From Theionarchaea archaeon (GTDB lineage: Archaea; Methanobacteriota_B; Thermococci; Methanofastidiosales; SZ-28-30), in assembly GCA_018992685.1 (NCBI GenBank), contig JACVGT010000035.1:1-34985 (forward strand): DNA of 34,985 nt, in the 5' to 3' direction. Below the pieces are notes generated by a model. It saw only the letters and a program-made list of their open reading frames with translations, did no database searches and had not been told where the DNA came from. The stretch's first letter is position 1, and every line of letters begins with the position of its first letter. Both the position numbers and the translations under genes were made by a program. Positions 8,823 through 28,923 of the stretch are shown in pieces.

Positions 8823-9227
8823 ATGTCTCTCAGAAGGAAGGTGGAAAGAATGGTCGAAAGATCTAAAGCCGAAGAACTGAAAATCCTTTTAGAAGCCCTG
8901 GAAGCTACCACACCTGATATTGAGGCATCTGCTGTGGTATCTGTGGATGGGTTGATGATTGCTTCAGCTTTACCTCGCGATGTAGAGGAAGATAGGGTGG
9001 CTGCCATGTCAGCTGCCATGCTGTCCCTAGGTGAGAGGACAGCGAAGGAGCTGGCAAGAGGAAGTTTGTCTGAAATCTATGTAAAAGGAGAGAACGGATA
9101 CGTTGTTCTGATGGCATCAGGGGAGAACGCAGTTCTCACAGCCCTGGCTCGTAAAGATGCGAAATTGGGACTGGTGTTTCTCGACATGAAAAGGACAGCT
9201 GAAGATGTTACACGACTTGTGGGGTGA
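8823..9227 (+). CDS. Roadblock/LC7 domain protein
   Basis: A Roadblock/LC7 (MglB-like) protein of 134 residues, almost all of it one domain. It shows the family pattern of a central strand VVSVDGLMIASALP, a helix with AAMLSLGERTAKEL, then VYVKGENGYVVLM-type strands and LVFLDM. Roadblock proteins dimerise and act on or scaffold small Ras-like GTPases. No GTPase is encoded nearby. The start is set at ATG 8823, after SD GAGGAG; TTG 8793 and ATG 8850 are alternatives, and 8850 aligns with the start of the 28552 paralogue. Outside the ends it is nearly identical to that paralogue. It is coupled to the V4R-like gene 4 bp downstream. Confidence 0.9.
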   Translation: MSLRRKVERMVERSKAEELKILLEALEATTPDIEASAVVSVDGLMIASALPRDVEEDRVAAMSAAMLSLGERTAKELARGSLSEIYVKGENGYVVLMASGENAVLTALARKDAKLGLVFLDMKRTAEDVTRLVG

Positions 9228-9231
9228 TATT

Positions 9232-9867
9232 GTGCCGGAAGAAATAATGGCAGACAACCTCATTATGAGAGTTTTTCTAGAAACAATTGATAACATCATT
9301 GGGCCAAATGGACTCAAATCGATACTGAACTATGCTCATCTGGAGAAGTACATCGGTCAGCTACCTCCAGACAATGATGAGAAAGAGATTCCCATTCAAG
9401 ACCTTCGGAAACTATATCTCTCGCTTCATGAAATGTTCGGGAACAAAGGTGCCCGCAGTCTTCAGCTCCGGGTGGGGAGAGAGAACGTGTACCGGGGTCT
9501 TGAGAAGCGTCCAGGAATAGCCCGAGCCATGCAGGTCGCCTCTCATCTCGTCCCCGAGACAACAAAAATGCGTCTTGGTCTAGAGAGACTGGTAAAGTAC
9601 ATGAAGGAGTCATCTAATAGATCCAGTGAAAACCTCGTTGAGATTCACGAGGAAGAAGATTGGTTCGTGCTCATCCAGAGAGAGAGTATAGAAAGTATGG
9701 GAATCACATCACGGACACCCACCTGCGGTGTTACCCTTGGCATCATTGAAGCTCTCATAGAATGGATGACTGGACATCCCCATGACGTGCAGGAAATCGA
9801 GTGCAGGGCAATGGGGGATCAGGCTGACATTTTCAGGGTTTCAAAAAAGCCAAAAAAGAAGGACTGA
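9232..9867 (+). CDS. V4R-like ligand-binding protein, partner of Roadblock
   Basis: A 211-residue protein with a C-terminal region like the V4R (4-vinyl reductase/heme NO-binding-like) domain: CGVTLGIIEALIEWMTG, then EIECRAMGDQADIF. The single cysteine in E-x-E-C-R-A-M-G is kept in its paralogue at 19478, while the last cysteine common in V4R proteins is absent. The N-terminal half is helical. GTG 9232 is chosen because VPEEI aligns with MPQEI at the start of the paralogue, and because the SD GGGGTGAT at 9221-9228 overlaps the upstream stop codon. Translation is therefore likely coupled to the Roadblock gene. It probably senses a small molecule; the ligand is unknown. Confidence 0.72.
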   Translation: MPEEIMADNLIMRVFLETIDNIIGPNGLKSILNYAHLEKYIGQLPPDNDEKEIPIQDLRKLYLSLHEMFGNKGARSLQLRVGRENVYRGLEKRPGIARAMQVASHLVPETTKMRLGLERLVKYMKESSNRSSENLVEIHEEEDWFVLIQRESIESMGITSRTPTCGVTLGIIEALIEWMTGHPHDVQEIECRAMGDQADIFRVSKKPKKKD

Positions 9868-10005
9868 CTCAGCAGTAGGATGGTCCTCTCCATTAGAGGG
9901 AGTAGGAGCTCTCAAGCTATGTAGACCTGAAAATCATTCTTTTCATTGTAGTTCTATGCCGTGCTCATGAACTCTGTCCAGACATATCTCGACTGAGAGC
10001 TCGAC

Positions 10006-11058
10006 TTACAGGGGGAGAATTCTCAACTGTTCATTCACTCCTTTTCCGTTGGTCAATTCCACAGAGTCTCCATTGGTGTACGTGAACGTTCCTTCCATGT
10101 TGATGGGTGCATCCAAGAACAAGACACTCCATCCCGTTGTGTTGTGCATGGTCAGAGGTTCCATTCTCATGGCCTGTGCAATCTTGGGGTAAATTGACAA
10201 TCCAATTTGCATGTCCAGAGTTCCCTTGTCTGTCTGGACAGTGACCTTCTGCCGTGAGGGTATGAATCGGCGGTATGGGGTTAAGTACACCCAGGTTTCA
10301 GGCATGAATCGGATCTCTTTGGTGACGAAGCATTCCTCACCATCAGGCAGACAGATCACACCATCCTCAAAATGGTATGGGGTCCCATCATCTGAAATTG
10401 ATTCACAATGGCATAAGAAAGCGTACAATTGATCAAAGTTTAGGTAGGTCCAGTCCATGGTCCTGATCTTCAAGAATTCCAGTGATCTGATCCAGACATG
10501 TTCAAATACACCTCTCCCCGTGACGTCTATGTCTTTTCCATTGACGGTAATTGTTCCATGAACATCAGACAGTGATTCGATGCCGCTGACAGAAGTTCCT
10601 TCAGTGACGGGGCACTGTCCATCCTTTTTGTTGCCCCACCGGAGTACTGGACCGCGAGGACTAAAGGTCAGATGGGTTCTGAACGTTTCGTCCTCCGAGA
10701 TGATCTTCTGTTCGTCTACACTGCAGACAGCTGCAAGCTTTTCCATTTTTGCAGTAACAGTACCTTTCTCTTCAGTGAAATTAAACGCGCTCTGAGGGAG
10801 GAGTTTTCCAATGCTGATGTGATTCTCAGGTTCCCCAACAGCCTGTGCATCGCCTTCCTGCACGGGAGAAAAGGAATCCTGGCAAAACCCTATGCTGTAA
10901 CCGCTCCCTCCCATGAAGGTTCCTTCAGTGATGGCCATCACCAAGAAGTTGTCTTTCCCTTCACAAGGAAAAGTCACGGCAAAATACCAGTCATTCCAGT
11001 GCATTGGCTGATCCATATGTTTCGGCCTCAGATCGTCCAATTCAATGTGTGTACTCAT
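10006..11058 (-). CDS. AttH/CrtC-like lipocalin-fold protein
   Basis: A 350-residue, beta-rich soluble protein with no signal peptide or membrane segment. Its general plan resembles the AttH/CrtC (carotenoid 1,2-hydratase-like) lipocalin-type family: an N-terminal HWNDWYFAVTFPCEG, a middle VTGRGVFEHVWI followed by MDWTYLNFDQLYAFL, and a C-terminal sheet ending GTFTYTNGDSVEL. No carotenoid genes are nearby, so a hydratase role is not supported; a lipid-binding or unknown role is as likely. ATG 11058 is chosen because it has a perfect SD, AGGAGGTGA. The homology call is tentative. Confidence 0.5.
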   Translation of the reverse strand: MSTHIELDDLRPKHMDQPMHWNDWYFAVTFPCEGKDNFLVMAITEGTFMGGSGYSIGFCQDSFSPVQEGDAQAVGEPENHISIGKLLPQSAFNFTEEKGTVTAKMEKLAAVCSVDEQKIISEDETFRTHLTFSPRGPVLRWGNKKDGQCPVTEGTSVSGIESLSDVHGTITVNGKDIDVTGRGVFEHVWIRSLEFLKIRTMDWTYLNFDQLYAFLCHCESISDDGTPYHFEDGVICLPDGEECFVTKEIRFMPETWVYLTPYRRFIPSRQKVTVQTDKGTLDMQIGLSIYPKIAQAMRMEPLTMHNTTGWSVLFLDAPINMEGTFTYTNGDSVELTNGKGVNEQLRILPL

Positions 11059-11102
11059 TTTTTCACCTCCTTTCTGCAACGCCGGCACTGGTACGCTTCT
11101 CC

Positions 11103-11114
11103 TACCTTAAGGTA
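11103..11114. promoter_or_regulatory. 12-bp palindrome upstream of the AttH-like gene
   Basis: TACCTTAAGGTA is a perfect palindrome whose CTTAAG centre lies about 50 nt before the ATG at 11058. It could be the TATA region itself or an operator overlapping it. Confidence 0.35.
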
Positions 11115-11395
11115 CCTCCACAGGAGGCTGAGCAATCTCTGGCAAAAAAGTCAGGGACAGTAGTTGCAGCTCACGGCATCTGGATACCGCAACTCAATCT
11201 ACACCTCCTTCTGAAGGTTCCATCCTTCATTACCAGTACCTTCGTGTATTCACCAATACAGGAGGAGTTTTAAGTCTTTGCTTTGGAGACGTGGAGTGGC
11301 CTCCAGCAATCGGATTTCAAAGTACGGTACATGCTGCTCGCAGCAGCTCTACCTTCTTTTCAATCCCCCCGTGGGTGACCAGTGACTGCTCGTTC
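11115..11395. other. Intergenic stretch without recognisable genes
   Basis: About 280 bases between the palindrome and the end of the DUF835 gene, part of a gap of more than 300 bases. It holds a small hairpin, GCTGCT/AGCAGC, at 11333-11347 and a minus-strand TATA-like AACTCC-flanked TTAAAA near 11260-11270. The only frames are short (about 20 codons) and resemble nothing known. Confidence 0.4.
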
Positions 11396-14008
11396 TTATC
11401 TTTCACCAATTACAATTAGCTCTCTTTCCAAGAGCCCCACTTCTTTTGCAGAAAGAGTGTCTGCATGCAGAGGGACGATCAGCCGGGAATTATTCAGCAC
11501 AATCGTGTCCTTCAAGTCCCTGAGAAACTTCAGTGCTACCTCGAACCCATTTTGAGTCATCAAGTATTCCATCCCATCCAGTAAGACCACAGACTGTTCG
11601 CTCCTCCTGGTGAAGTTCCTGATAATAAAGATCAATTTGGATAAGTCATTGGGGTCCACCCCTTGTTCCACCTGGGAGCGAGTCAGCCAGACCATGGGAG
11701 TCTTCACTAAGCTGTACTTCCTCTTGATTCTCTCAGGATGAGTTCGCGATATGACAAATCCAGGAATTTCATGGGTAACCAGGTCTACAAAGATTTCAAG
11801 TGATTTCTCTGGTTTCTTCTCCAGGACGACATAGCCTTCTCCCAATTCCAGGCTATACGTGAGATCTGTAGAAAAACTGTCTTCTGCCACTGGTTCTACC
11901 ATCAATCGAGTTCTGTCCACAAAAGCGGCACACATTCCTGCCAGAAGCTCTAAATCTTTCACATCTTCCTCACTCACAATCCTGCGCGTTCTGGGGTTAT
12001 CTGCTGCAATTGCTGCGAACGCTTCATCCCGAACGATAATGGGAACCCATACGAAGGAAGCTGCGTCTGAAGTAACTTGCTTCCCCTGAACCTCGTATGC
12101 ATCTTGAACGTAGACTGTCCTTTTCTCCAGAACGCATTGAACACCAAAGTACTCTGTGCTCATCAAAGAGAGAGACATGTCTCTCGGAGGGGCATCAGTC
12201 CCAGCGCCGTAGTAAAACTTGAGCATCTTTCTAACGGGATCCACCATGAAAATTCCACATCTATCAAATCCCAATCCGCAAATGCTGTCCACCATGGTGA
12301 TAAGCCCTCTCTCCCAGCTTGTCTCTCGCTGCAGCACCTGTTTTGCATTGAGGATAACCTCTGTCCTGTGTGCCTTGTCTGCAATCCTCTTCTCCAAATC
12401 TTTGTTCAAGTTCTGCACTTCCTCATACAGGCGGGAATTCCAGATGGCAGCGGAGACCACCTCGCTCAAAGGTTTCAGTATGTCTATGTCATGTTGGGTG
12501 TACTCCGGCTCCCTCCGAGCTAGATATGCTGCTCCAACACACTGGTCTTCAATAACCAGGGGGAGCAGGATCTCTGATATCGCCCCTTCCTCGTCGAAAG
12601 GCAGACTATCTGTGCTGTGGAAGAGAATACTCTCTCTCGTACTTATGCATTGATTCAAAATTTGCTGGTTGTACAGCAAAGCCATCACTTCAACATTCTC
12701 TTTCAAATTGGTTGAACTGAAGGCAGGATACACCAGGCTCCCATCCTGGGACACAAAGAAAATGATAAATCGATCTGCTCCCACCAGATCCCTGATTGAT
12801 TCTGAAATGTACTCAAAGCGTTTTTCCATATCCATGGTTGAATTAATCCGTTTTGTGGCTTCAAATAGATTTTTGAGCTGAGTTTCACTCCGTTTCCTGT
12901 CAGTGATATCCCTGATGATACTCTGGATTGCGTGAGGAACTTCGTGCCGGTAGAGGAGGAATGCTTCTGCTTCCACCCACACCTGATCGCCGTTCTTCTT
13001 TCTCAGCCTGTATTCGGTAGGAGCGGATTGATACCCCATCTCTTTAATTTCCTGGATGATATTACGGGCCTTGTAAAGATATTCTCGGTCTAGGAGAGCA
13101 GAAAGGGTCAATGACGGGATTTCGTCACAACTATACCCCAGGAGAGACAACATTGTCTGGTTTGCGTCCAGCAGCTGACCTTCAAAGTCATGGACCAACA
13201 CTCCCACCAGACTGCGTTCAAATAGGGAGGTGTATCGAGCTTCGGATTCTCTGAGCGCTTCAGTGGTGTGGTGTTCTTCAGTAACATCTCTGAATGCCAC
13301 TACTGCTCCTGCAGGGCCTGCACTATCGTAATACAGAGGAGCTGCGGTTATTTCCAGATATAGCGTAGTGTCCTCTCTTCTCTGGAGTTCAAGAGATGTG
13401 CAACAGGTGGAAGAACTCTGTGAAAGGGCTTGATGAAGCAAGGGTTCAATGCTGGGATTGCTCTCCACGTGAAGAATGTCTGAGATAGGGGAACCTACTG
13501 CTCGTCCGGATGACCAGCCAGTGAGATGAGAAGCCAGAGCGTTCAGGAAGGTTACGATCCCTGCTGTATCAGTTGTAATGACAGCATAGTTCATGGCAGA
13601 CAGGGTGTTAACCAACCACTGCCTACTCTCCTCAGTCCCTTCCTCACCTTCATGACGTCGTATTGCCCCTTCTATGACGGATTGCAGGTGCTTCTTTTTG
13701 AAAGGAGTCAAGAGGACCGGCTCTGGAAAGAACTTCTGTTCGCATGTCAGGAATACAACAGGAACACCGTATCGAGTACGAAGGGTGGACCCAATGCTTC
13801 TTCCATCTGGTGGCCCTGGAAAGTCAATGTTCACCAGAGCAGCATCACACGAGCCTTTCTTTGCATAGACAAGAGCCTCGCTCCCCGAAGGGGGAATGAG
13901 ACAGGTGTAGCCCAGATCATGCAGAGTCTTTCCGATTTCTGCTGAAGTTTTTTCACATGACTCTACTACGAGTATGGTTTTGCCCGTGAGATCACCCTTC
14001 TTGTTCAA
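11396..14008 (-). CDS. Multi-sensor protein: pseudo-receiver, 2 PAS, 2 GAF, DUF835
   Basis: An 870-residue cytoplasmic signalling protein. Domains in order: receiver-like (about 10-120), PAS (about 125-240), PAS with a PAC-type end DITDRK (about 255-370), GAF (about 378-535), a coiled stretch, GAF (about 565-705) and a C-terminal DUF835 domain (about 725-865). No histidine kinase, cyclase or output enzyme is present. The receiver has Asn60 where the phosphorylated Asp should be, and Thr101 in LLTPFK where the conserved Lys should be, so it is probably not phosphorylated. DUF835 is an archaeal domain of unknown role often found at the end of such proteins. The start is TTG 14008, with a TATA-like CATAATTTGAA about 22 nt upstream and no SD; the start is uncertain. 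Confidence 0.85.
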   Translation of the reverse strand: MNKKGDLTGKTILVVESCEKTSAEIGKTLHDLGYTCLIPPSGSEALVYAKKGSCDAALVNIDFPGPPDGRSIGSTLRTRYGVPVVFLTCEQKFFPEPVLLTPFKKKHLQSVIEGAIRRHEGEEGTEESRQWLVNTLSAMNYAVITTDTAGIVTFLNALASHLTGWSSGRAVGSPISDILHVESNPSIEPLLHQALSQSSSTCCTSLELQRREDTTLYLEITAAPLYYDSAGPAGAVVAFRDVTEEHHTTEALRESEARYTSLFERSLVGVLVHDFEGQLLDANQTMLSLLGYSCDEIPSLTLSALLDREYLYKARNIIQEIKEMGYQSAPTEYRLRKKNGDQVWVEAEAFLLYRHEVPHAIQSIIRDITDRKRSETQLKNLFEATKRINSTMDMEKRFEYISESIRDLVGADRFIIFFVSQDGSLVYPAFSSTNLKENVEVMALLYNQQILNQCISTRESILFHSTDSLPFDEEGAISEILLPLVIEDQCVGAAYLARREPEYTQHDIDILKPLSEVVSAAIWNSRLYEEVQNLNKDLEKRIADKAHRTEVILNAKQVLQRETSWERGLITMVDSICGLGFDRCGIFMVDPVRKMLKFYYGAGTDAPPRDMSLSLMSTEYFGVQCVLEKRTVYVQDAYEVQGKQVTSDAASFVWVPIIVRDEAFAAIAADNPRTRRIVSEEDVKDLELLAGMCAAFVDRTRLMVEPVAEDSFSTDLTYSLELGEGYVVLEKKPEKSLEIFVDLVTHEIPGFVISRTHPERIKRKYSLVKTPMVWLTRSQVEQGVDPNDLSKLIFIIRNFTRRSEQSVVLLDGMEYLMTQNGFEVALKFLRDLKDTIVLNNSRLIVPLHADTLSAKEVGLLERELIVIGER

Positions 14009-14018
14009 AGCTGGAACG

Positions 14019-14228
14019 CTATTTCAAATTATGTTGCCTTGTCCTGTGGGGCTTCTGAAGAGACAGCAGTAAAAAATCAGGTAATTCTGGAAGAAAACAG
14101 GTACCACGTAATATCGTAAGCCTGAAGAACTCACTAAGTGTTGCGCCCATGATATCTCTCGTCCCTTGTTTCCGCATTCTCTCTTGAAGTGTTTGATTGG
14201 AGTCTCTTCTTGTCATTTTTACAGACAC
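14019..14228 (-). CDS. Possible small protein, unknown
   Basis: A frame of 69 codons from GTG 14228 (ATG at 14216) that resembles no known family. It is listed only because a strong minus-strand TATA element, AATATTTATA at 14251-14260, lies 27 nt before the GTG, the spacing used by the leaderless genes here. It ends 10 bp before the start of the DUF835 gene. The alternative is that this promoter simply drives the DUF835 gene through a long leader. Confidence 0.25.
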   Translation of the reverse strand: MSVKMTRRDSNQTLQERMRKQGTRDIMGATLSEFFRLTILRGTCFLPELPDFLLLSLQKPHRTRQHNLK

Positions 14229-14250
14229 CCAGTATTTATTCGTTTCCTTC

Positions 14251-14260
14251 TATAAATATT
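14251..14260 (-). promoter_or_regulatory. Strong TATA box, minus strand
   Basis: AATATTTATA lies just after the end of the ATPase gene and points toward the DUF835 gene. Transcription should start near 14229. Confidence 0.5.
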
Positions 14261-14308
14261 TTTCCAATGAAAAGCAACCGACAACAGGAGAGTGATCAAA
14301 ATGATCCT

Positions 14309-16999
14309 CTACGCAGAGAGAGGTGTGACTCCTCTACGAACGAGCCACTTTCTCACTTCCTCAACACCCAGTATGACAAGAGGCGCAGTCATGATTACCG
14401 GCCACATTTTCCAGTCAACAGGTGCTGTTGTGAAGAACACGTAGAAGATGGGCACATAAACAATTGAAAAAATGAAGGCAGTTTCTACGAGGATTCCTGC
14501 TGTTATCCAGGAGTTGAACCGGGCAATATGACGTAGAGCACTCTGCCTGTTCGTTCTACAGGCATTGACATTCCCAATCTGGCTGAAAACAATGGTGGCC
14601 AGAAATGCTCCCGCTGCTTGACGGTAGAGGGCGTCAGTCTCAGGGAGACGTTGTCCCCATGCCCATCCTCCTCCATACAAGATTATGAAAAACACCATGA
14701 AGGACAAGGCAGCCTCAACAGGACCGATGATGCCATAACTCCTGAAGAATGTTCTCAAGCTCACGAGCCGTTCCTCCCGTCTGCGCGGGGGACGTACCAT
14801 AATGTCATCTTCCGGCGGCTCATTTCCCAGTCCGATGGCAGGCAAAATATCAGTTATCAAATCTATGGACAAAATTTGAATAACTGTTATTGGCAGAGGG
14901 ATGGGGAACAGAACGTACGCAATGAAAGGGACAATTTCGGGTATATTGCTGGTGAGAATATAGGTAATGAACTTTTTGATGTTATCATACACTGCACGTC
15001 CTTCTTGTATAGCTTTCACAATGGTGGCAAAATTGTCGTCCAGCAAAATAATATCTGAAGCCTCCTTGGCCACATCTGTCCCACTCAGCCCCATGGAAAC
15101 GCCAATGTCTGCCCGTTTCAAAGCAGGAGCATCGTTAACTCCGTCACCTGTCACTGCCACCACTTCATCCATGTCCTTTAAAGCATCGACTATCTTCAAT
15201 TTCTGTTCGGGCGCAGTCCGGGCAAAAATGATTTCCTCTTTTTGCAGTTCCTGTATGAGTTGTTCTTTTGTCATTTCAGCTAATTCTTCTCCCTGAATTA
15301 TCCTGGGATCCTTCACGATGCCGAGCTCCCTGGCGATATTTCTTACTGTCTCTGCCTTGTCCCCACTGATTACAATGATCTTGATGCCTGCAGTCTTACA
15401 GGCACTCACAGCATCGGGCACCTCAGGCCTGGGGGGATCAATCATGGCCACAAATCCCACAAAAATCAGGTCCTCAGCCTTATCTGGCAGCTCATCAGCA
15501 AGACTGTAAGCCAGGGCCAGAACCCGGAGACCGTCATCTGCATACCGTTCTGCCGTCTCTGTGAGCTGTCTCTTCTCGGTGGGAGATAGAACTGTCACGG
15601 CTTCATTTTCCTGTACTCGGGTACAGCGTTCAATGATGACCTCGGGAGCTCCCTTGACAGTCATATAAAAGGAGGAATTCTTCTTGTACGTCGTATACAT
15701 GTACTTCTCTTCAGGTGTGAAGGGCTTTCCCCCCACCAGTTCATACAGCCCGCTGAGTTTGTCATACCCGGTGAACTCATCGGCAAACTCTGCCATGGCC
15801 ACCTCAGTGGGGTCTCCTTTGAAGATTTTGTTCCCTCGTTCATCCTGTGCAGTCACGACCTCGTTACACAGTGCCATGACTTCTTCCATGGTATCTGCCG
15901 TGGGGGCTTTCTTGAAGTCCCAGGGTGCTGCAGCAAAGATCTCTTTGAAATCCAGGTACACCCTGTCGACGTGCAGCTTATTCTGGGTCAGGGTTCCTGT
16001 CTTGTCAGTGCAGATAACAGTTGTGGAACCCAGAGTTTCGACAGATAAAATGGTCTTTATGATGGCATTTCTCCGGCCCATCCTGTAGGATGCCTGGGTC
16101 AAAGCCAGGGTGACAGTAGGGAGGAGTCCTTCGGGCACGTTGGCCACGATAATTCCGATGGCAAAAATGAGGTTGGTCCAGAATGTGTTTCCAATGACAA
16201 ATCCTAAAACAAAGAATATGAATCCAATGGCCAGAGCCAAATATGTTATTTTCTTCACAAAGAGCTTCAATTCCTTCTGCATGGGGGTTAAATCACGTTC
16301 AACTGTCTGAGACAATTCACTGATTGAACCAATGTGGGTAGACCTCCCCGTCTTGATCACGAGGATGGTGGCATTTCCTCTCATGACTGTTGAACCAGAA
16401 AAGACTTCGCATGAGAAATCATCATGATTACCAAAAGCAACTTTTTCCACTGGTTCTGACTCCCCTGTTAGTATGGACTCATCCACAAGGAGCTGATTTG
16501 ACGCAATGAGAATCCCATCTGCTGAGATCTTGTCCCCTTCCTGGACCAGCAAAATGTCTCCAGGAACTGTCTCTTTGGCATCCATGAGCTTGCGGTCTCC
16601 GTTCCTGAGTAGTGCCACCTCTTTGGGAATATAGTCCAGAAACGACTGCATAAGCTGTTCCACCTTGTACCGCTGGATGAAAGAAACCGCGGCATTGAGG
16701 ATGACGACACCCAAGAGGGCAGCCCCGATTAGGTTGTATCCTTCCCCTGGCTTGAGGATGTGAGCGAAAAAGGAGAGTATTGAAGAGATGAGAAGAAGGA
16801 TGGGGAACATTCCCTTGAATTCCTCCAATAACATCACGTATGGGGACTTCTTTCGGTGGAAAACCAATTGATTGACGCCATATTTCTTCTTTCTTTCCTG
16901 TGCTTCTGCTGTCGTTAACCCTTTTTCTGAGGAATCAAGCGTTTTGAACAATTCTTCTCTGCTCATTCCCTCATATTCACCAAACTCCATCCCCTCCAT
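14309..16999 (-). CDS. P-type cation ATPase, type IIC-like (Na+/K+-ATPase-like)
   Basis: An 896-residue P2-type ATPase with all core motifs: TGES (178-181) in the actuator, VPEGLLP (288-294) in M4, DKTGTLT with the phosphorylated D332, KGAPE in the nucleotide domain, and TGDGVNDAP in the hinge. The ion-binding segments resemble the animal Na+/K+-ATPase more than SERCA: TSNIPEIVPF in M5 and SIDLITDILPAI in M6 keep the Asn, Glu and both Asp ligands. It should pump Na+, K+, H+ or Ca2+ across the cell membrane; the ion cannot be fixed by eye. ATG 16999 has the SD AAGGAGG, but a TATA at 17011-17020 overlaps it and would suit a leaderless start at the in-frame ATG 16990. Confidence 0.93.
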   Translation of the reverse strand: MEGMEFGEYEGMSREELFKTLDSSEKGLTTAEAQERKKKYGVNQLVFHRKKSPYVMLLEEFKGMFPILLLISSILSFFAHILKPGEGYNLIGAALLGVVILNAAVSFIQRYKVEQLMQSFLDYIPKEVALLRNGDRKLMDAKETVPGDILLVQEGDKISADGILIASNQLLVDESILTGESEPVEKVAFGNHDDFSCEVFSGSTVMRGNATILVIKTGRSTHIGSISELSQTVERDLTPMQKELKLFVKKITYLALAIGFIFFVLGFVIGNTFWTNLIFAIGIIVANVPEGLLPTVTLALTQASYRMGRRNAIIKTILSVETLGSTTVICTDKTGTLTQNKLHVDRVYLDFKEIFAAAPWDFKKAPTADTMEEVMALCNEVVTAQDERGNKIFKGDPTEVAMAEFADEFTGYDKLSGLYELVGGKPFTPEEKYMYTTYKKNSSFYMTVKGAPEVIIERCTRVQENEAVTVLSPTEKRQLTETAERYADDGLRVLALAYSLADELPDKAEDLIFVGFVAMIDPPRPEVPDAVSACKTAGIKIIVISGDKAETVRNIARELGIVKDPRIIQGEELAEMTKEQLIQELQKEEIIFARTAPEQKLKIVDALKDMDEVVAVTGDGVNDAPALKRADIGVSMGLSGTDVAKEASDIILLDDNFATIVKAIQEGRAVYDNIKKFITYILTSNIPEIVPFIAYVLFPIPLPITVIQILSIDLITDILPAIGLGNEPPEDDIMVRPPRRREERLVSLRTFFRSYGIIGPVEAALSFMVFFIILYGGGWAWGQRLPETDALYRQAAGAFLATIVFSQIGNVNACRTNRQSALRHIARFNSWITAGILVETAFIFSIVYVPIFYVFFTTAPVDWKMWPVIMTAPLVILGVEEVRKWLVRRGVTPLSA

Positions 17000-17010
17000 T
17001 ACGGGTTCCT

Positions 17011-17020
17011 CCTTTTAAAT
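17011..17020 (-). promoter_or_regulatory. TATA-like element overlapping the ATPase SD
   Basis: ATTTAAAAGG on the minus strand overlaps the SD AAGGAGG. If both work, the transcript start near 16990 would remove the SD, so only one is likely to be functional. Confidence 0.35.
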
Positions 17021-17151
17021 GTGTGCTGTATGTTTCCCGGGAAGTCTAGCCAGCGTACAGAAGATGGGTTCACCATACAGGTCTGAAGCTCTGATGCAAC
17101 TGGGAGCTCTCAGATTGCCACCAGGAGGAATTTTGGAAGGTAGAAAAGTAA

Positions 17152-17163
17152 CCTTTATAATCC
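17152..17163 (+). promoter_or_regulatory. TATA box for the aldo/keto reductase gene
   Basis: CCTTTATAATCC predicts a transcript start near 17183, giving a leader of about 60 nt that includes the SD at 17230-17236. Confidence 0.6.
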
Positions 17164-17244
17164 TAATCCCCCTTGAGAGGGGAAGTAACTCCTGCGGGTA
17201 CGATCCGCTGAGACAGGACAGCCAGACAAGAGGTGAAAAGAGGT

Positions 17245-18390
17245 ATGGAAACTCGTATTCTCGGAAAGACCGGGCTCACGGTCGGTATCATCGGGTTGGG
17301 GACTGAATATCTGCGCAGAGCACCACGGGACAGAGTCATGCAGATGGTGGATACAGCGGCAGACCATGGGGTAACCTATGTGGACCTGGTGTTCAACTTT
17401 GCTGACTATCTGGATGCTTTTGCCACGGCACTGGAGGGGCGTAGAGATGAATTCGTGTTGGCTGTGCATCTGGGTTCTGCAGAACGAAAAGGACAGTACG
17501 AGAAAACTCGGAGTCTGAAAAAGTGTGAGAAGGGGTTCCATGAGTCTCTCGCTCGACTCCGCACTGACCACGCAGATATTGTCAATGTTCACTTTGTCAA
17601 GACTCAAAAAGAATATGAACGGGTCAAGAAGAAGGGGATTTTTTCCCTGGCTTCCAGCCTGAAAGAGGAAGGAATGGCTACGTCTGTGGGAATGAGCACG
17701 CATGATACTGCAGTGGCTGTAGACGCTGCAACCAGTGGCCTTGTAGATGTAATAATGATCCAGATAAACCTGGCCAATAATGCCATGCCTCATCGTAATG
17801 AAATGCTGGCATTGTGTGCGAAAGAGAAAGTAGGTGTTGTGGCTATGAAGCCTTTTGCTGGAGGAAAGCTCTTGCAGCAAAACAGGACAGTGAACCTAGC
17901 ACAGCATCAGACAGGTGGCAAAGCTTTGAAAAAGAAAATACCCAAGGTAATCACTCCCACTCACTGCCTGAGTTACATATTATCCCAGGTGGGTGTAACC
18001 ACAGTTGTTCCGGGGGTATCAAGCGCAGGAGAATTTGAGGGCGTTCTTCACTACCTGAAAGCAACAGAGGAAGAGAAGGACTTTTCAGGGCTTTTGGTCG
18101 ATTTTGAAGAGTACGTAACAGGTGATTGTGTCTACTGCAACCACTGTCTGCCCTGTCCTGCAGGAATTGATATTGGTGAGTGCAGCAGGCTCTTAGACAG
18201 AGCAAAGCAGGGCATGACCAGTGAGATGTGGAGAACGTATGAGATGTGTCCTGAGAAAGCATCAGCATGCACTGAATGTGGTTTGTGTGTTCAACGCTGT
18301 CCTTTTGGCGTCGATGTCGTCTCCAGAATGAAAGAGGCAGCCATCCTGTTTGAGGGTCAGAAATCTAACAGATCTAGCACAAATCTGTAG
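17245..18390 (+). CDS. Aldo/keto reductase with C-terminal 2[4Fe-4S] ferredoxin domain
   Basis: A 381-residue fusion of an aldo/keto reductase barrel and a ferredoxin-like tail. The barrel starts METRILGKTGLTVGIIGLGT. Of the usual D-Y-K-H catalytic set, D47, Y55 and H116 (DIVNVHFV) can be matched, but the Lys position appears as His75 in LAVHLG, so ordinary carbonyl reduction is doubtful. The tail holds two clusters: C295, C298, C301, C304 and C342, C345, C348, C352. Such Fe-S AKRs are common in anaerobes and their substrates are mostly unknown. ATG 17245 is chosen over GTG 17233 because the SD GAGGTGA (17230-17236) overlaps that GTG. Confidence 0.88.
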   Translation: METRILGKTGLTVGIIGLGTEYLRRAPRDRVMQMVDTAADHGVTYVDLVFNFADYLDAFATALEGRRDEFVLAVHLGSAERKGQYEKTRSLKKCEKGFHESLARLRTDHADIVNVHFVKTQKEYERVKKKGIFSLASSLKEEGMATSVGMSTHDTAVAVDAATSGLVDVIMIQINLANNAMPHRNEMLALCAKEKVGVVAMKPFAGGKLLQQNRTVNLAQHQTGGKALKKKIPKVITPTHCLSYILSQVGVTTVVPGVSSAGEFEGVLHYLKATEEEKDFSGLLVDFEEYVTGDCVYCNHCLPCPAGIDIGECSRLLDRAKQGMTSEMWRTYEMCPEKASACTECGLCVQRCPFGVDVVSRMKEAAILFEGQKSNRSSTNL

Positions 18391-18424
18391 ATTGTGACGA
18401 TTTGCCCACTTGAAAAAAAGAAAG

Positions 18425-18432
18425 TTATATAA
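18425..18432 (+). promoter_or_regulatory. TATA box for the possible ncRNA
   Basis: TTATATAA lies about 25 nt before 18453 and no long gene follows on this strand. Confidence 0.5.
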
Positions 18433-18452
18433 GCATGGAGAACAATTACATA

Positions 18453-18601
18453 ATGGGAAACACTACAAGTCTCTCATCTTTTGTCTCCCATAGGGACCGG
18501 TCTTCGGACCTGTCCCCCCCTTGGCGCAACGTTTGCTGGTTTCTGACATGTATTAAAAGAATAATCTCTTTTCTGAATGGCTATTACTGACCAGAAAAGA
18601 G
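18453..18601 (+). ncRNA. Possible structured RNA with UUCG hairpin
   Basis: Downstream of a good TATA box lie three inverted repeats in series. ATGGGA (18453-18458) pairs with TCCCAT (18486-18491). A 10-bp stem with one mismatch and a TTCG tetraloop spans 18493-18516. CTCTTTTCTG (18566-18575) pairs perfectly with CAGAAAAGAG (18592-18601). A UUCG loop closed by C-G is typical of stable RNA. It does not resemble SRP RNA, RNase P RNA or tRNA. The same region also holds a 45-codon frame from ATG 18453 to TGA near 18590, correctly placed for a leaderless message, so a small protein is the alternative. Confidence 0.4.
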
Positions 18602-18669
18602 TATATCTAGAATTCGGGCATAGATGATGCCTGGTCACGGCATTCTGGCTGGTTTCGGCCCTAAAACTT

Positions 18670-18912
18670 TTAGATTTTTTTCAGGAATTCCTTGACTTGG
18701 TAATCCCATTCACGAGTTTCAATTTCAATGTCACTGCCCTTCTTCTTGGTCGTAGCATCAATGTGCACATGACCTCCTCCACCTTCGAAGGTAATGCAAC
18801 ACTGACCTTCGTCCTTTATTTGCAGGCCCACACCACCTGGTCCGAAAAAAATCCTCGCTTTCTTGATTACGTCTTCAGCTCCATGGCTGCTTTCCTTCCC
18901 ATAACGGGGCAT
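18670..18912 (-). CDS. Small protein of unknown function, 80 residues
   Basis: The frame from ATG 18912 begins MPRYGKESSHGAEDVIKKAR and has a perfect SD, GAGGTGATG, just upstream, which decides the start over the in-frame site at 18948. The protein is a short helix followed by glycine-rich strands (FFGPGGVGLQI, FEGGGGHVHIDA) and a charged C-terminus, with no membrane segment. I do not recognise the family. A TATA-like element at 18973-18982 lies upstream. It is a stand-alone gene on the minus strand between the possible ncRNA and the decayed Roadblock pair. Confidence 0.65.
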   Translation of the reverse strand: MPRYGKESSHGAEDVIKKARIFFGPGGVGLQIKDEGQCCITFEGGGGHVHIDATTKKKGSDIEIETREWDYQVKEFLKKI

Positions 18913-18972
18913 TTCATCACCTCTTCCCTGCGGGTTCACTACGCACACAGGCGTTACATGTAGGTCAATGAG

Positions 18973-18982
18973 ATTAATAAAT
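18973..18982 (-). promoter_or_regulatory. TATA box for the 80-residue protein
   Basis: ATTTATTAAT on the minus strand predicts a transcript start near 18952 and a leader of about 40 nt with the SD. Confidence 0.45.
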
Positions 18983-19074
18983 GTTTTCCCTGGATTCTGG
19001 AAATGATTAAGCCTCCATAGTCCAATCTGGGAAGAAGGAAGCCGACTATTAGCCTATTTTCTGGGACAAAGCAT

Positions 19075-19084
19075 CTATAAATAA
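19075..19084 (+). promoter_or_regulatory. TATA box for the second Roadblock-V4R pair
   Basis: CTATAAATAA predicts a transcript start near 19105. It suggests the pair is still transcribed although its first gene is damaged. Confidence 0.5.
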
Positions 19085-19137
19085 TGAGCTTTTCATTCTT
19101 CCCACAATCTCATTCCTGAAAAGAAAGGATTGATAAA

Positions 19138-19473
19138 ATGGAAGAGATGATCATGCCAAAAAGAAGCAAGAAGCTACCTCATATATTAAAGGATTTAGAA
19201 GACGTCACTTGCTATATTGAGGCATCAGCTGCGGGTTCTTCCGTCAAATTGATGGTAGCATCTGGATTGCCTCGGGATATGGAACGTGATAGGGTGACAG
19301 CGAGGCCGAGGGTATTGTCCCTGCCAAGAAGGAGGTCTGTCAGAAGACGTCCTTGGGAGTGGCTGGATTACACGTTAACGAGAAGTAATCCAAGGTATAT
19401 ACCCCTCACGACTGTTGAAGAAGAACCCCAGAAGCTCGGTGAGACTAAAACCGAATTACTCTCCACGACGTGA
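19138..19473 (+). pseudogene. Decayed Roadblock/LC7 gene, frameshifted
   Basis: The first 60 or so residues still match the Roadblock paralogues at 8823 and 28552: IEASA, VASGLPRDMERDRV against IASALPRDVEEDRV, and VLSL. After LSL about 21-24 nt matching GERTAAEL are missing, and one extra base shifts the frame. The shifted frame reads GGLSEDV, matching GGLSEVYV of the 28552 copy, and soon meets a stop. The translated tail in the open frame is arginine-rich and meaningless as Roadblock. It ends at TGA 19471-19473, exactly 7 nt before the V4R start, as in the intact pair. A truncated or repurposed protein cannot be excluded. Confidence 0.7.
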
Positions 19474-19477
19474 TTCC

Positions 19478-20137
19478 ATGCCGCAGGAAATTGACAACTT
19501 CATATTCCGAAAATGGCTGGAAACGCTCCAACACATCATAGGGGAACGAGGACTCAAAACCATTCTGGAATACGCATTCCTCGATCAGTATATTGACAAT
19601 TTCCCTCCGGACGATGATATGGGCGTTATTCCAGTGGAGCACCTCACATCGCTGTATAGGGCAATCCAGGATTTGGTTGGACAAAAGGGGACAGGCAGTC
19701 TCCAACGCAACATAGGACGGAAGGTCATGGAAAGAATGGTGAGGAGCCGTCCTGCAGTGGCCCTACCCATCAAGGCCACAGCCAGAGATCTTCCTGAATC
19801 ACTGAGAATTCGCATGATTCTGAAAGAATTCATCAAGCAGTCGCTGGAACGGGCTCCTACTGTGCTGGGGAAGAACAGATATGAACTCAGAGAGAACGAT
19901 GACTACTTCCTCTTCATTGACTATGACTACGAGGGAAGCGAAGGAGTGATATCAGATAGCCCCGTGTGTGGGTTTCTGATGGGCATGGTAGATTACGCTG
20001 TTGAATGGATTACGGGCACTCCCCACAAGACGGAAGAAATTCAGTGCAGGGCCATGGGACATTCCAGTGATGTCATAAGGATCTGGAAAATGGCTGAGTC
20101 AGATGACCTTCCTTCGCGCTGTTCTATTCAAGATTGA
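19478..20137 (+). CDS. V4R-like ligand-binding protein, second copy
   Basis: A 219-residue paralogue of the 9232 protein, colinear throughout: MPQEIDNF at the start, RGLKTILEYAFLDQYI near residue 25, NFPPDDDMGVIPVEHL, and at the end VCGFLMGMVDYAVEWITG and EIQCRAMGHSSDVIRI. The cysteine of E-x-Q-C-R-A-M-G is conserved and the last V4R cysteine is again absent. Sequence identity to the first copy is clearly partial, so the duplication is old or the copies are diverging. The ATG at 19478 follows CGTGATT overlapping the upstream stop codon. It remains intact although its Roadblock partner is decayed. Confidence 0.72.
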   Translation: MPQEIDNFIFRKWLETLQHIIGERGLKTILEYAFLDQYIDNFPPDDDMGVIPVEHLTSLYRAIQDLVGQKGTGSLQRNIGRKVMERMVRSRPAVALPIKATARDLPESLRIRMILKEFIKQSLERAPTVLGKNRYELRENDDYFLFIDYDYEGSEGVISDSPVCGFLMGMVDYAVEWITGTPHKTEEIQCRAMGHSSDVIRIWKMAESDDLPSRCSIQD

Positions 20138-28551: not shown

Positions 28552-28923
28552 GTGGCTATGTCAAAAACTGAAGAACTGACTGCTCTTTTGAAGGATCTGG
28601 AAGCCACCACACCCGATATTGAAGCATCTGCTGTGGTTTCTGTGGATGGATTGATGATTGCGTCTGCTTTGCCTCGTGATGTAGAAGAAGACAGAGTAGC
28701 TGCCATGTCAGCAGCCATGCTTTCGTTGGGTGAGAGAACAGCGGCCGAGCTGGCCAGAGGAGGTCTCTCGGAGGTCTATGTCAAAGGAGAGAACGGATAT
28801 GTTGTCCTAATGGCTTCTGGTGAGAATGCTGTTCTCACAGCCCTAGCCCGGAAAGATGCAAAACTAGGATTAGTCTTCCTGGACATGAAAAGAACAGCAG
28901 AAGAGGTGGGCAGGATCATCTGA
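28552..28923 (+). CDS. Roadblock/LC7 domain protein, stand-alone copy
   Basis: A 123-residue single-domain Roadblock protein, about 90% identical to the protein at 8823 over 115 residues, including an unbroken stretch from TTPDIEAS through LSLGERTA. The DNA differs at many third codon positions, so the protein is under strong constraint rather than freshly copied. GTG 28552 is chosen because the SD AAGGAGG (28538-28544) is 7 nt away; ATG 28558 is the alternative. Unlike the other copies it has no V4R-like gene after it. It should partner a Ras-like GTPase or other Roadblock proteins. Confidence 0.9.
   Translation: MAMSKTEELTALLKDLEATTPDIEASAVVSVDGLMIASALPRDVEEDRVAAMSAAMLSLGERTAAELARGGLSEVYVKGENGYVVLMASGENAVLTALARKDAKLGLVFLDMKRTAEEVGRII

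Follow-up and report, generated by a model that had tools for sequence, protein, structure and literature searches.

Recurrent Roadblock-V4R gene pairs in a Theionarchaea genome as candidate ligand-sensing regulators of Ras-like GTPases

Roadblock and V4R genes in the window

The window, by which we mean the whole 34,985-nt stretch of Theionarchaea contig JACVGT010000035.1 that was analyzed, carries the Roadblock and V4R genes listed in Table 1. An earlier note on this DNA had reported a Roadblock/LC7 gene followed directly by a V4R-like gene at two places, 8823-9867 (pair A) and 19138-20137 (pair B). For pair A this was borne out by a PF03259 match followed by a PF02830 match. The pair A Roadblock scored 63.9 bits, relative to the curated PF03259 cut-off of 23, and alignment with its paralogues indicated ATG 8850 as the likely start. 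It is 81-89% identical to eleven paralogues in the genome that, with it, make up a highly conserved family, referred to here as the frozen family. The pair A V4R scored 28.8 bits against PF02830 when searched alone (E 1.3e-6), under the 31-bit cut-off; in the search of the genome it passed that cut-off with 31.5 bits.

Table 1. Features of the Roadblock and V4R genes in the window.
Feature	Position	Strand	Evidence
Roadblock/LC7 gene, pair A	8823..9227	+	PF03259 E 1.1e-17; probable start ATG 8850
GGTGAT Shine-Dalgarno (SD) motif of pair A V4R	9223..9228	+	sequence; spacing usual for genome
V4R gene, pair A, GTG start, predicted ligand-pocket sensor	9232..9867	+	PF02830 E 1.3e-6; AF2 model
Decayed Roadblock (pseudogene), pair B	19138..19473	+	Roadblock homology over residues 1-52 only
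V4R gene, pair B, without neighbouring intact Roadblock	19478..20137	+	PF02830 E 1.5e-4
Third Roadblock, frozen family, no V4R partner	28552..28923	+	PF03259 E 2.1e-17

In pair B, the V4R gene was found to be intact and the Roadblock gene decayed. The 111-aa ORF upstream of the V4R gene had no Pfam or NCBIfam match (none to PF03259 at E 10) and was not assigned to the Roadblock family by profile. Residues 1-52 match the Roadblock consensus at 58% identity and homology is lost beyond them, whereas the intact paralogues are about 90% identical to the consensus over their full length; because the homology ends after residue 52, we interpret this ORF as a decayed Roadblock, and pair B is not an independent second intact copy. 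The match of the pair B V4R to PF02830 is weak (22.2-24.3 bits, below the cut-off), and the protein is a clear paralogue of the pair A V4R (37% identity). Profile and fold searches agreed with the earlier description of the second gene of the pair as V4R-like. Relative to its orthologue in the sister genome SZ_28-30, the pair B V4R has a dN/dS of 0.10, which indicates that it is still under purifying selection despite having no intact Roadblock neighbour. The orthologues of both window V4Rs are intact in SZ_28-30 (78 and 73%), and the Roadblocks beside them are reduced to relics.

A third window Roadblock, which the earlier note did not include, is identical in protein sequence to its SZ_28-30 orthologue over 120 aa; it is possibly a member of a shared Roadblock pool.

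Recurrence of the pair in this genome and in other archaea

The stop codon of the pair A Roadblock (TGA, 9225-9227) lies inside the SD motif of the V4R gene, with 7 nt from the start of the TGA to the V4R GTG. The earlier note took identical 7-nt coupling as an argument for a functional unit, and this argument did not hold: in a sample of SD-bearing ORFs from the genome, a TGA lay at -7 more often than at any other position (34/83), because the archaeal SD sequence GGTGAT itself contains TGA. The stop-to-start distance across the ten pairs was 7 to 50 nt.

The recurrence of the pair itself is another matter. It was found that the Theionarchaea MAG contains at least nine Roadblock-V4R pairs that are intact and on the same strand, as well as decayed ones, relative to about 0.04 intact pairs expected by chance; the pairs are paralogous and thus not independent, and the adjacency is far beyond chance. 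Five V4R paralogues in the genome have no Roadblock neighbour. Most of the pairs stand as isolated bicistrons among unrelated genes, with no GTPase beside them, and neighbour clustering within this genome found no recurrent third partner beside all pairs. The gene directly upstream of one pair (c3b) encodes a protein paralogous to the PAS/GAF-DUF835 protein of the window.

Beyond this genome, the pair occurs in several other archaeal families. Roadblock-V4R pairs were found in G009, G013, G229, G246 and G280, the gene order is reversed in one family (G003-G005), and in G312 a 490-aa protein is a natural fusion of the form V4R-V4R-Roadblock. In the Asgard-like genomes G311 and G362 the order is V4R-Roadblock-GTPase-Roadblock-Roadblock-Roadblock, with variants in G185 and G276, and the Asgard-like V4R groups with the Theionarchaea pair c3c at E values under 1e-83, well separated from other V4Rs. 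The nine pairs, the other families, the reversed order and the fusion support the earlier proposal that V4R and Roadblock work together as a unit. In most archaea that have both domains, V4R and Roadblock are not adjacent. The tandem V4R proteins of family f16 were rejected as general Roadblock neighbours, as, of the loci examined, G312 C31 alone has a Roadblock.

Divergence and predicted fold of the two partners

The Roadblock paralogues share 91% amino acid identity at a pS of 0.71, and their V4R partners share 48% at a pS of 0.78, values that point to a frozen common Roadblock platform with diversified V4R sensors. Recent gene conversion as the sole cause of the Roadblock identity was ruled out by pS near saturation; for some Roadblocks (c1a/c1b, pS 0.45) an exchange of sequence through gene conversion is possible. 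Co-divergence of paired Roadblock and V4R paralogues was weak (Mantel p 0.07-0.47, n=8), and the most variable part of the V4R is the middle helical segment, residues 83-135.

Between the sister genomes, dN/dS was 0.00-0.04 for the frozen Roadblock family and 0.05-0.12 for V4Rs without an intact cis-Roadblock, which indicates that V4Rs that lost the Roadblock neighbour remain under purifying selection. The persistence of V4Rs beside lost Roadblocks in SZ_28-30 and beside the dead pair B Roadblock in the window genome, together with the five V4R paralogues that have no Roadblock neighbour, is what would be expected if the adjacency were duplication baggage, with V4Rs acting alone as ligand carriers and Roadblock copies hitchhiking. 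We consider this very unlikely, given that the Roadblock is the more strongly conserved gene and that the two genes are linked in several archaeal families, with either gene first and also fused.

The AF2 model of the pair A V4R had a pLDDT of 88.3, and that of the Roadblock was poor (pLDDT 52). The best structural match of the V4R model was H-NOX/soluble guanylate cyclase (Z 15.5 over 172 residues), followed by Thor TRAPPC3 (Z 12.3), PoxR/DmpR (Z about 11) and Bet3-Trs33 (Z 10.8). The window V4R is therefore predicted to have the H-NOX/TRAPPC3/PoxR ligand-pocket fold, and as a PF02830 protein it would share the fold common to PoxR, MJ1460 and TRAPPC3. Known relatives of this fold bind haem, fatty acids or phenols in an internal pocket. 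Despite the likeness to the H-NOX sensor domain, an alignment of 14 V4R paralogues contained no invariant His at the expected haem position and the window V4R has no YxSxR motif, which rules out a canonical haem H-NOX. Two Cys residues, C165 and C191, are invariant among the V4R paralogues. A conserved Cys cluster (Zn site) was not found: in the window-type V4Rs the C-x-A-x-G-x-x-x-C motif (canonical V4R form C-x-x-G-x-x-x-C) is without its second Cys, a residue that is present in the c3c type. The phenol sensors PoxR, DmpR and MopR resemble the present proteins in that the XylR_N-V4R architecture occurs in c3c, f3 and the Asgard-like partners, and in the fold predicted for the window V4R, but in these bacterial proteins the sensor is joined to an AAA+/DNA-binding regulator within one chain, whereas the partner here is a Roadblock.

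Link to Ras-like GTPases and proposed function

The earlier statement that no GTPase is nearby stood for the window ORFs examined, the window Roadblock copies having no adjoining Ras-like GTPase gene, but not for the genome as a whole. Near-identical Roadblocks of the type found in the pairs are also present in MglA-like GTPase operons at two loci, with the gene orders Roadblock-V4R-92aa-225aa-GTPase (C1) and Roadblock-196aa-GTPase (C14); SZ_28-30 keeps the C14 operon but not the GTPase portion of C1. In 8 of the 9 pairs there is no GTPase in the same operon. In G008 and G014 a GTPase directly follows the Roadblock, so that the gene adjacency typical of MglA-MglB was found at C1, C14, G008, G014 and in the Asgard-like genomes. 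These common operons strengthen the connection to a GTPase, which the earlier note had offered as inference. The sole PDB match of the C14 GTPase at E <= 1e-6 was Thermus MglA, and the G3 motif of the GTPase, TPGQ, is without the usual Asp, a feature shared with MglA (PMC4316618). The 196- and 225-aa proteins that precede the GTPases have a weak profile match to Roadblock (P 7.5e-4) and are tentatively Roadblock/longin-like. A 162-aa protein encoded after the Roadblock at C2:95887, tried as a V4R, had no Pfam or PDB match; it weakly resembles the product of a 155-aa gene in the G276 locus.

The arrangement resembles the MglA-MglB polarity switch of Myxococcus and Thermus in the Roadblock gene beside a small Ras-like GTPase and in the G3 motif, and differs from it in the V4R gene that accompanies the Roadblock and in the many Roadblock copies relative to few GTPases; papers on that system describe RomR/RomX and MglC, not V4R, as partners of MglB. 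Streptomyces conservons (PMC13343842) are likewise operons present in many copies, in which a sensor is linked to the Roadblock CvnB and the Ras-like GTPase CvnD. Their sensor is the histidine-kinase-like CvnA, with CvnC in the operon, whereas here it would be the V4R, the GTPase lies mostly elsewhere in the genome, and neighbour clustering found no recurrent further partner beside the pairs that could stand for CvnA or CvnC.

The isolation of most pairs among unrelated neighbours without a GTPase would also fit a stable V4R-Roadblock complex with a non-GTPase output, in which the Roadblock serves as a dimerization or anchoring scaffold, for example toward a transcription factor, a PAS/GAF sensor (as the gene directly upstream of pair c3b could suggest) or a membrane protein; in the survey of Wuichet and Sogaard-Andersen, 328 of 749 MglB homologues were uncoupled from MglA (PMC4316618). 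We regard such an output as unlikely, because a near-identical Roadblock is present in the two GTPase operons and a GTPase adjoins in G008, G014 and the Asgard-like operons.

TRAPP is a eukaryotic vesicle-traffic complex whose core combines TRAPPC3-fold and longin subunits in a single exchange factor for Rab. A primitive TRAPP-like tether or exchange factor at the membrane, in which V4R dimers (TRAPPC3-like) and Roadblock dimers (longin-like) join in a single elongated complex to recruit and activate the GTPase and a lipid ligand is structural rather than a signal, would be consistent with the TRAPPC3 and Bet3-Trs33 matches of the V4R model, with the several Roadblocks around one GTPase in the Asgard-like operon, with V4R as the likely ancestor of Bet3 (PMC2253512), and with the TRAPP/Ragulator-like dimers made by Asgard Roadblock and TRAPPC3 proteins (PMC10933270). 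Tran et al. 2024 studied the Asgard Roadblock, longin and TRAPPC3 proteins, which belong to the same families as those considered here, singly; they did not describe V4R-Roadblock operons or fusions, and GTPase genes of MK-D1 are generally outside operons with Roadblock, longin or TRAPPC3 genes (PMC10933270). A TRAPP-like role appears distinctly unlikely to us, as the closest fold match is H-NOX rather than TRAPPC3, the partner is a Roadblock and no true longin, and ten divergent V4Rs with one invariant Roadblock fit a sensor array better than a single tether.

We consider it somewhat probable that the V4R-Roadblock pair senses a ligand and in response regulates a Ras-like GTPase, although complex formation, ligand binding, the direction of signaling, a GAP or GEF effect and a shared Roadblock pool are all parts of this proposal that we infer. 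The V4R would be a sensor with an internal pocket, feeding a ligand signal into the GTPase regulator, and the Roadblock would form a dimer like that of MglB and bind a small GTPase of the MglA type. Once loaded with ligand, the V4R would bind the Roadblock dimer, the product of the same bicistron, and thereby change the action of the dimer on the GTPase. Because the Roadblock is almost invariant while the V4R has diversified, a common Roadblock platform probably accepts many different V4R sensors, whose signals would be funnelled to one or two GTPases, those of loci C14 and C1. If the Roadblocks are interchangeable, a V4R could for that reason lose its cis-Roadblock and be served in trans, of which pair B may be a case.

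To our knowledge, Roadblock-regulated GTPases are widespread in archaea and their input signals are largely unknown; the conserved operon and the natural fusion with V4R offer a concrete, testable input. A frozen Roadblock with diversified V4Rs predicts a common output with swappable sensors. The pairs and the Asgard-like GTPase-adjoining units suggest a little-noticed signaling module that uses fold types also found in TRAPP. A possible but doubtful extension is that they represent an undescribed archaeal receptor array, with V4Rs of different ligand specificity, an invariant Roadblock and a single Ras-like GTPase, and that the operon shared by Theionarchaea and Asgard-like genomes is a surviving relative of the arrangement that gave rise to TRAPP. 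The occurrence of a V4R/TRAPPC3 fold and a Roadblock/longin-type fold beside a small GTPase, in Asgard-like genomes included, bears on the origin of GTPase regulation in vesicle traffic.

Roadblock-V4R pairs in the window and its genome

Searching the window's genome at E < 1e-3 gave 14 Roadblock and 17 V4R domains, and in nine cases a V4R gene comes immediately after the Roadblock gene in the same orientation, against a chance expectation of about 0.04, with paralogous pairs being non-independent events. Because the genes flanking the pairs vary from pair to pair, the bicistron is taken as the unit.

Pair A of the window was confirmed: its first gene is a Roadblock (PF03259, E 1.1e-17) and its second a V4R (PF02830, E 1.3e-6). 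The earlier note had described pair B as a second copy, which held for its V4R (E 1.5e-4) but not for its Roadblock, as profile searches found no family match for the preceding ORF. In tblastn with the Roadblock consensus, this ORF matched at 58% identity over residues 1-52, with no homology past that point; intact copies had about 90% identity over the full length. The ORF is a decaying Roadblock. Another decaying copy is the remnant behind pair c3a (on contig C3), which shows the birth and death of Roadblock-V4R units. In Theionarchaea archaeon SZ_28-30, a sister genome of the same genus, the orthologues of window V4Rs A and B are both intact (78% and 73%), and at both loci the Roadblock has shrunk to a short relic.

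It had also been proposed that an identical 7-nt geometry in the two pairs was evidence of a module. In pair A, the V4R GTG start lies 7 nt after the beginning of the Roadblock TGA. However, the archaeal SD GGTGAT includes TGA, and in 34 of 83 ORFs with an SD-like motif drawn from this genome a TGA begins exactly 7 nt ahead of the start codon, much more often than at any other position; therefore, the shared 7 is uninformative. The pairs are mostly tightly spaced, and the stop-to-start distance over all ten was 7 to 50 nt.

The Roadblock paralogues have 91% protein identity with synonymous sites near saturation (mean pS 0.71), and their V4R partners 48% identity (pS 0.78), the middle, helical segment 83-135 being the most variable part; the partner in pair c3c is of another V4R subtype with a XylR_N region. 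Between the sister genomes, dN/dS was 0.00-0.04 for Roadblocks of this near-invariant ("frozen") family and 0.05-0.19 for V4Rs. V4Rs with a dead or missing adjoining Roadblock remain constrained in this comparison (0.10 for window V4R B). We infer a common pool that provides Roadblock in trans. The window's third frozen-family Roadblock is identical over 120 aa to its sister-genome orthologue, despite a pS of 0.42.

Paralogues of a window sensor protein recur close to Roadblock-type genes, as listed in the table.

Coordinates and gene orders of the features
Feature	Location	Description
Pair A	window 8823-9227, 9232-9867	Roadblock, V4R
Pair B	window 19138-19473, 19478-20137	ORF, V4R
Third Roadblock	window 28552-28923	frozen family; no V4R partner
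REC/PAS/GAF-DUF835 type sensor	window 11396-14008 (minus)	
Sensor paralogues	C3:101930-104635, C19:12555-14780	one 127 nt upstream of pair c3b; another immediately behind a Roadblock/longin-like gene on C19
Remnant	C3:73845-74180 (L039:10845-11180)	decayed Roadblock-V4R pair directly behind c3a
C1 operon	C1:136966-134388	frozen-family Roadblock, V4R, 92-aa gene, 225-aa gene, 176-aa GTPase
C14 operon	C14	frozen-family Roadblock, 196-aa gene, 169-aa GTPase
225-aa and 196-aa proteins	L036:8920-9597, L044:10449-11036	no Pfam match; each directly precedes an MglA-like GTPase
162-aa protein	L045:9314-9802 (G000 C2)	no Pfam match; 12 nt behind frozen Roadblock
155-aa protein	L092:3579-4046	no Pfam match; in the G276 locus
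f42 loci, G311 and G362		V4R-Roadblock-GTPase-Roadblock-Roadblock-Roadblock
f42 locus, G185		V4R-GTPase-Roadblock-Roadblock-Roadblock
f42 locus, G276		V4R, 155-aa gene, Roadblock, GTPase
Fusion ORF, G312 (f16)	L124:1138-2607 (C31)	490 aa; V4R-V4R-Roadblock
Roadblock genes adjoining ~400-aa proteins	L138, L140, L142 (G380, G243, G172)	C-terminal GTPase domain; another Roadblock-GTPase arrangement

GTPase linkage and other archaea

The statement that no GTPase is nearby was correct for the window ORFs examined but not genome-wide, as two operons combine a GTPase with a frozen Roadblock. The C14 operon is kept in SZ_28-30; at the C1 orthologue, Roadblock-V4R-92aa is kept, only a fragment of the 225-aa gene remains, and there is no GTPase downstream. 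These two are the genome's only GTPases of this MglA-like family. For the C14 GTPase, Thermus MglA was the sole PDB match at E <= 1e-6, and the G3 motif is TPGQ, without Asp. A GTPase of the same MglA-like family lies directly behind Roadblock in two other genomes (G008 and G014). The 225- and 196-aa proteins have weak profile similarity to the Roadblock C-terminal half and are possibly a Roadblock/longin-like second subunit. The 162- and 155-aa proteins are weakly alike (E 0.001) and may be divergent TRAPP/V4R-type partners.

The phylum-level comparison set comprised 115 genomes. Pair c3c is kept in G009 and G013 (V4R 72-74% identical), family f20 has Roadblock-V4R pairs in G229, G246, and G280, and three f2 genomes have the reversed order, V4R then Roadblock. 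Family f42 is considered Asgard-like because EAP30 genes are present; its V4Rs and that of c3c cluster tightly (E < 1e-83), and a wide gap sets this cluster apart from every other V4R in 396 archaeal genomes. In G311, two of the Roadblock-like genes further along the locus are weak, one being below the Pfam cut-off and one matched only by an HMM built here. The natural fusion (V4R domains E 2e-22, Roadblock domain E 1e-8) was found in one genome; the related f16 tandem-V4R proteins examined lack Roadblock. Among the matches listed, other genomes with both domains mostly have them non-adjacent.

V4R fold and proposed mechanism

The AF2 model of V4R A was good (pLDDT 88.3, pTM 0.86), and that of Roadblock alone was poor. 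The top structural matches of the V4R model were the soluble guanylate cyclase H-NOX domain (Z 15.5 over 172 residues), TRAPPC3 from Thorarchaeota (Z 12.3), the PoxR/DmpR/MopR phenol sensors (Z about 11), and Bet3-Trs33 (Z 10.8), all of them folds with a ligand-binding pocket. Inspection of V4R motifs revealed no haem signature, and one motif Cys is lost.

According to Podar et al., Bet3 probably descends from V4R (PMC2253512). Tran et al. determined structures of Roadblock and TRAPPC3 proteins from Asgard archaea and reported that MK-D1 GTPase genes are generally outside operons of RB, longin, or TRAPPC3 genes (PMC10933270). The open-access papers searched contained no account of V4R and Roadblock sharing an operon or being fused, subscription journals being mostly outside this scope. 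Roadblock-GTPase systems are known, and the V4R input is the part that those papers do not describe. With the linkage, fusion, conservation, and predicted V4R fold in hand, the best-supported reading is that V4R would bind and sense a small hydrophobic ligand and signal through a Roadblock dimer to the enzymatic activity of an MglA-like GTPase, with many V4Rs drawing on one Roadblock pool.
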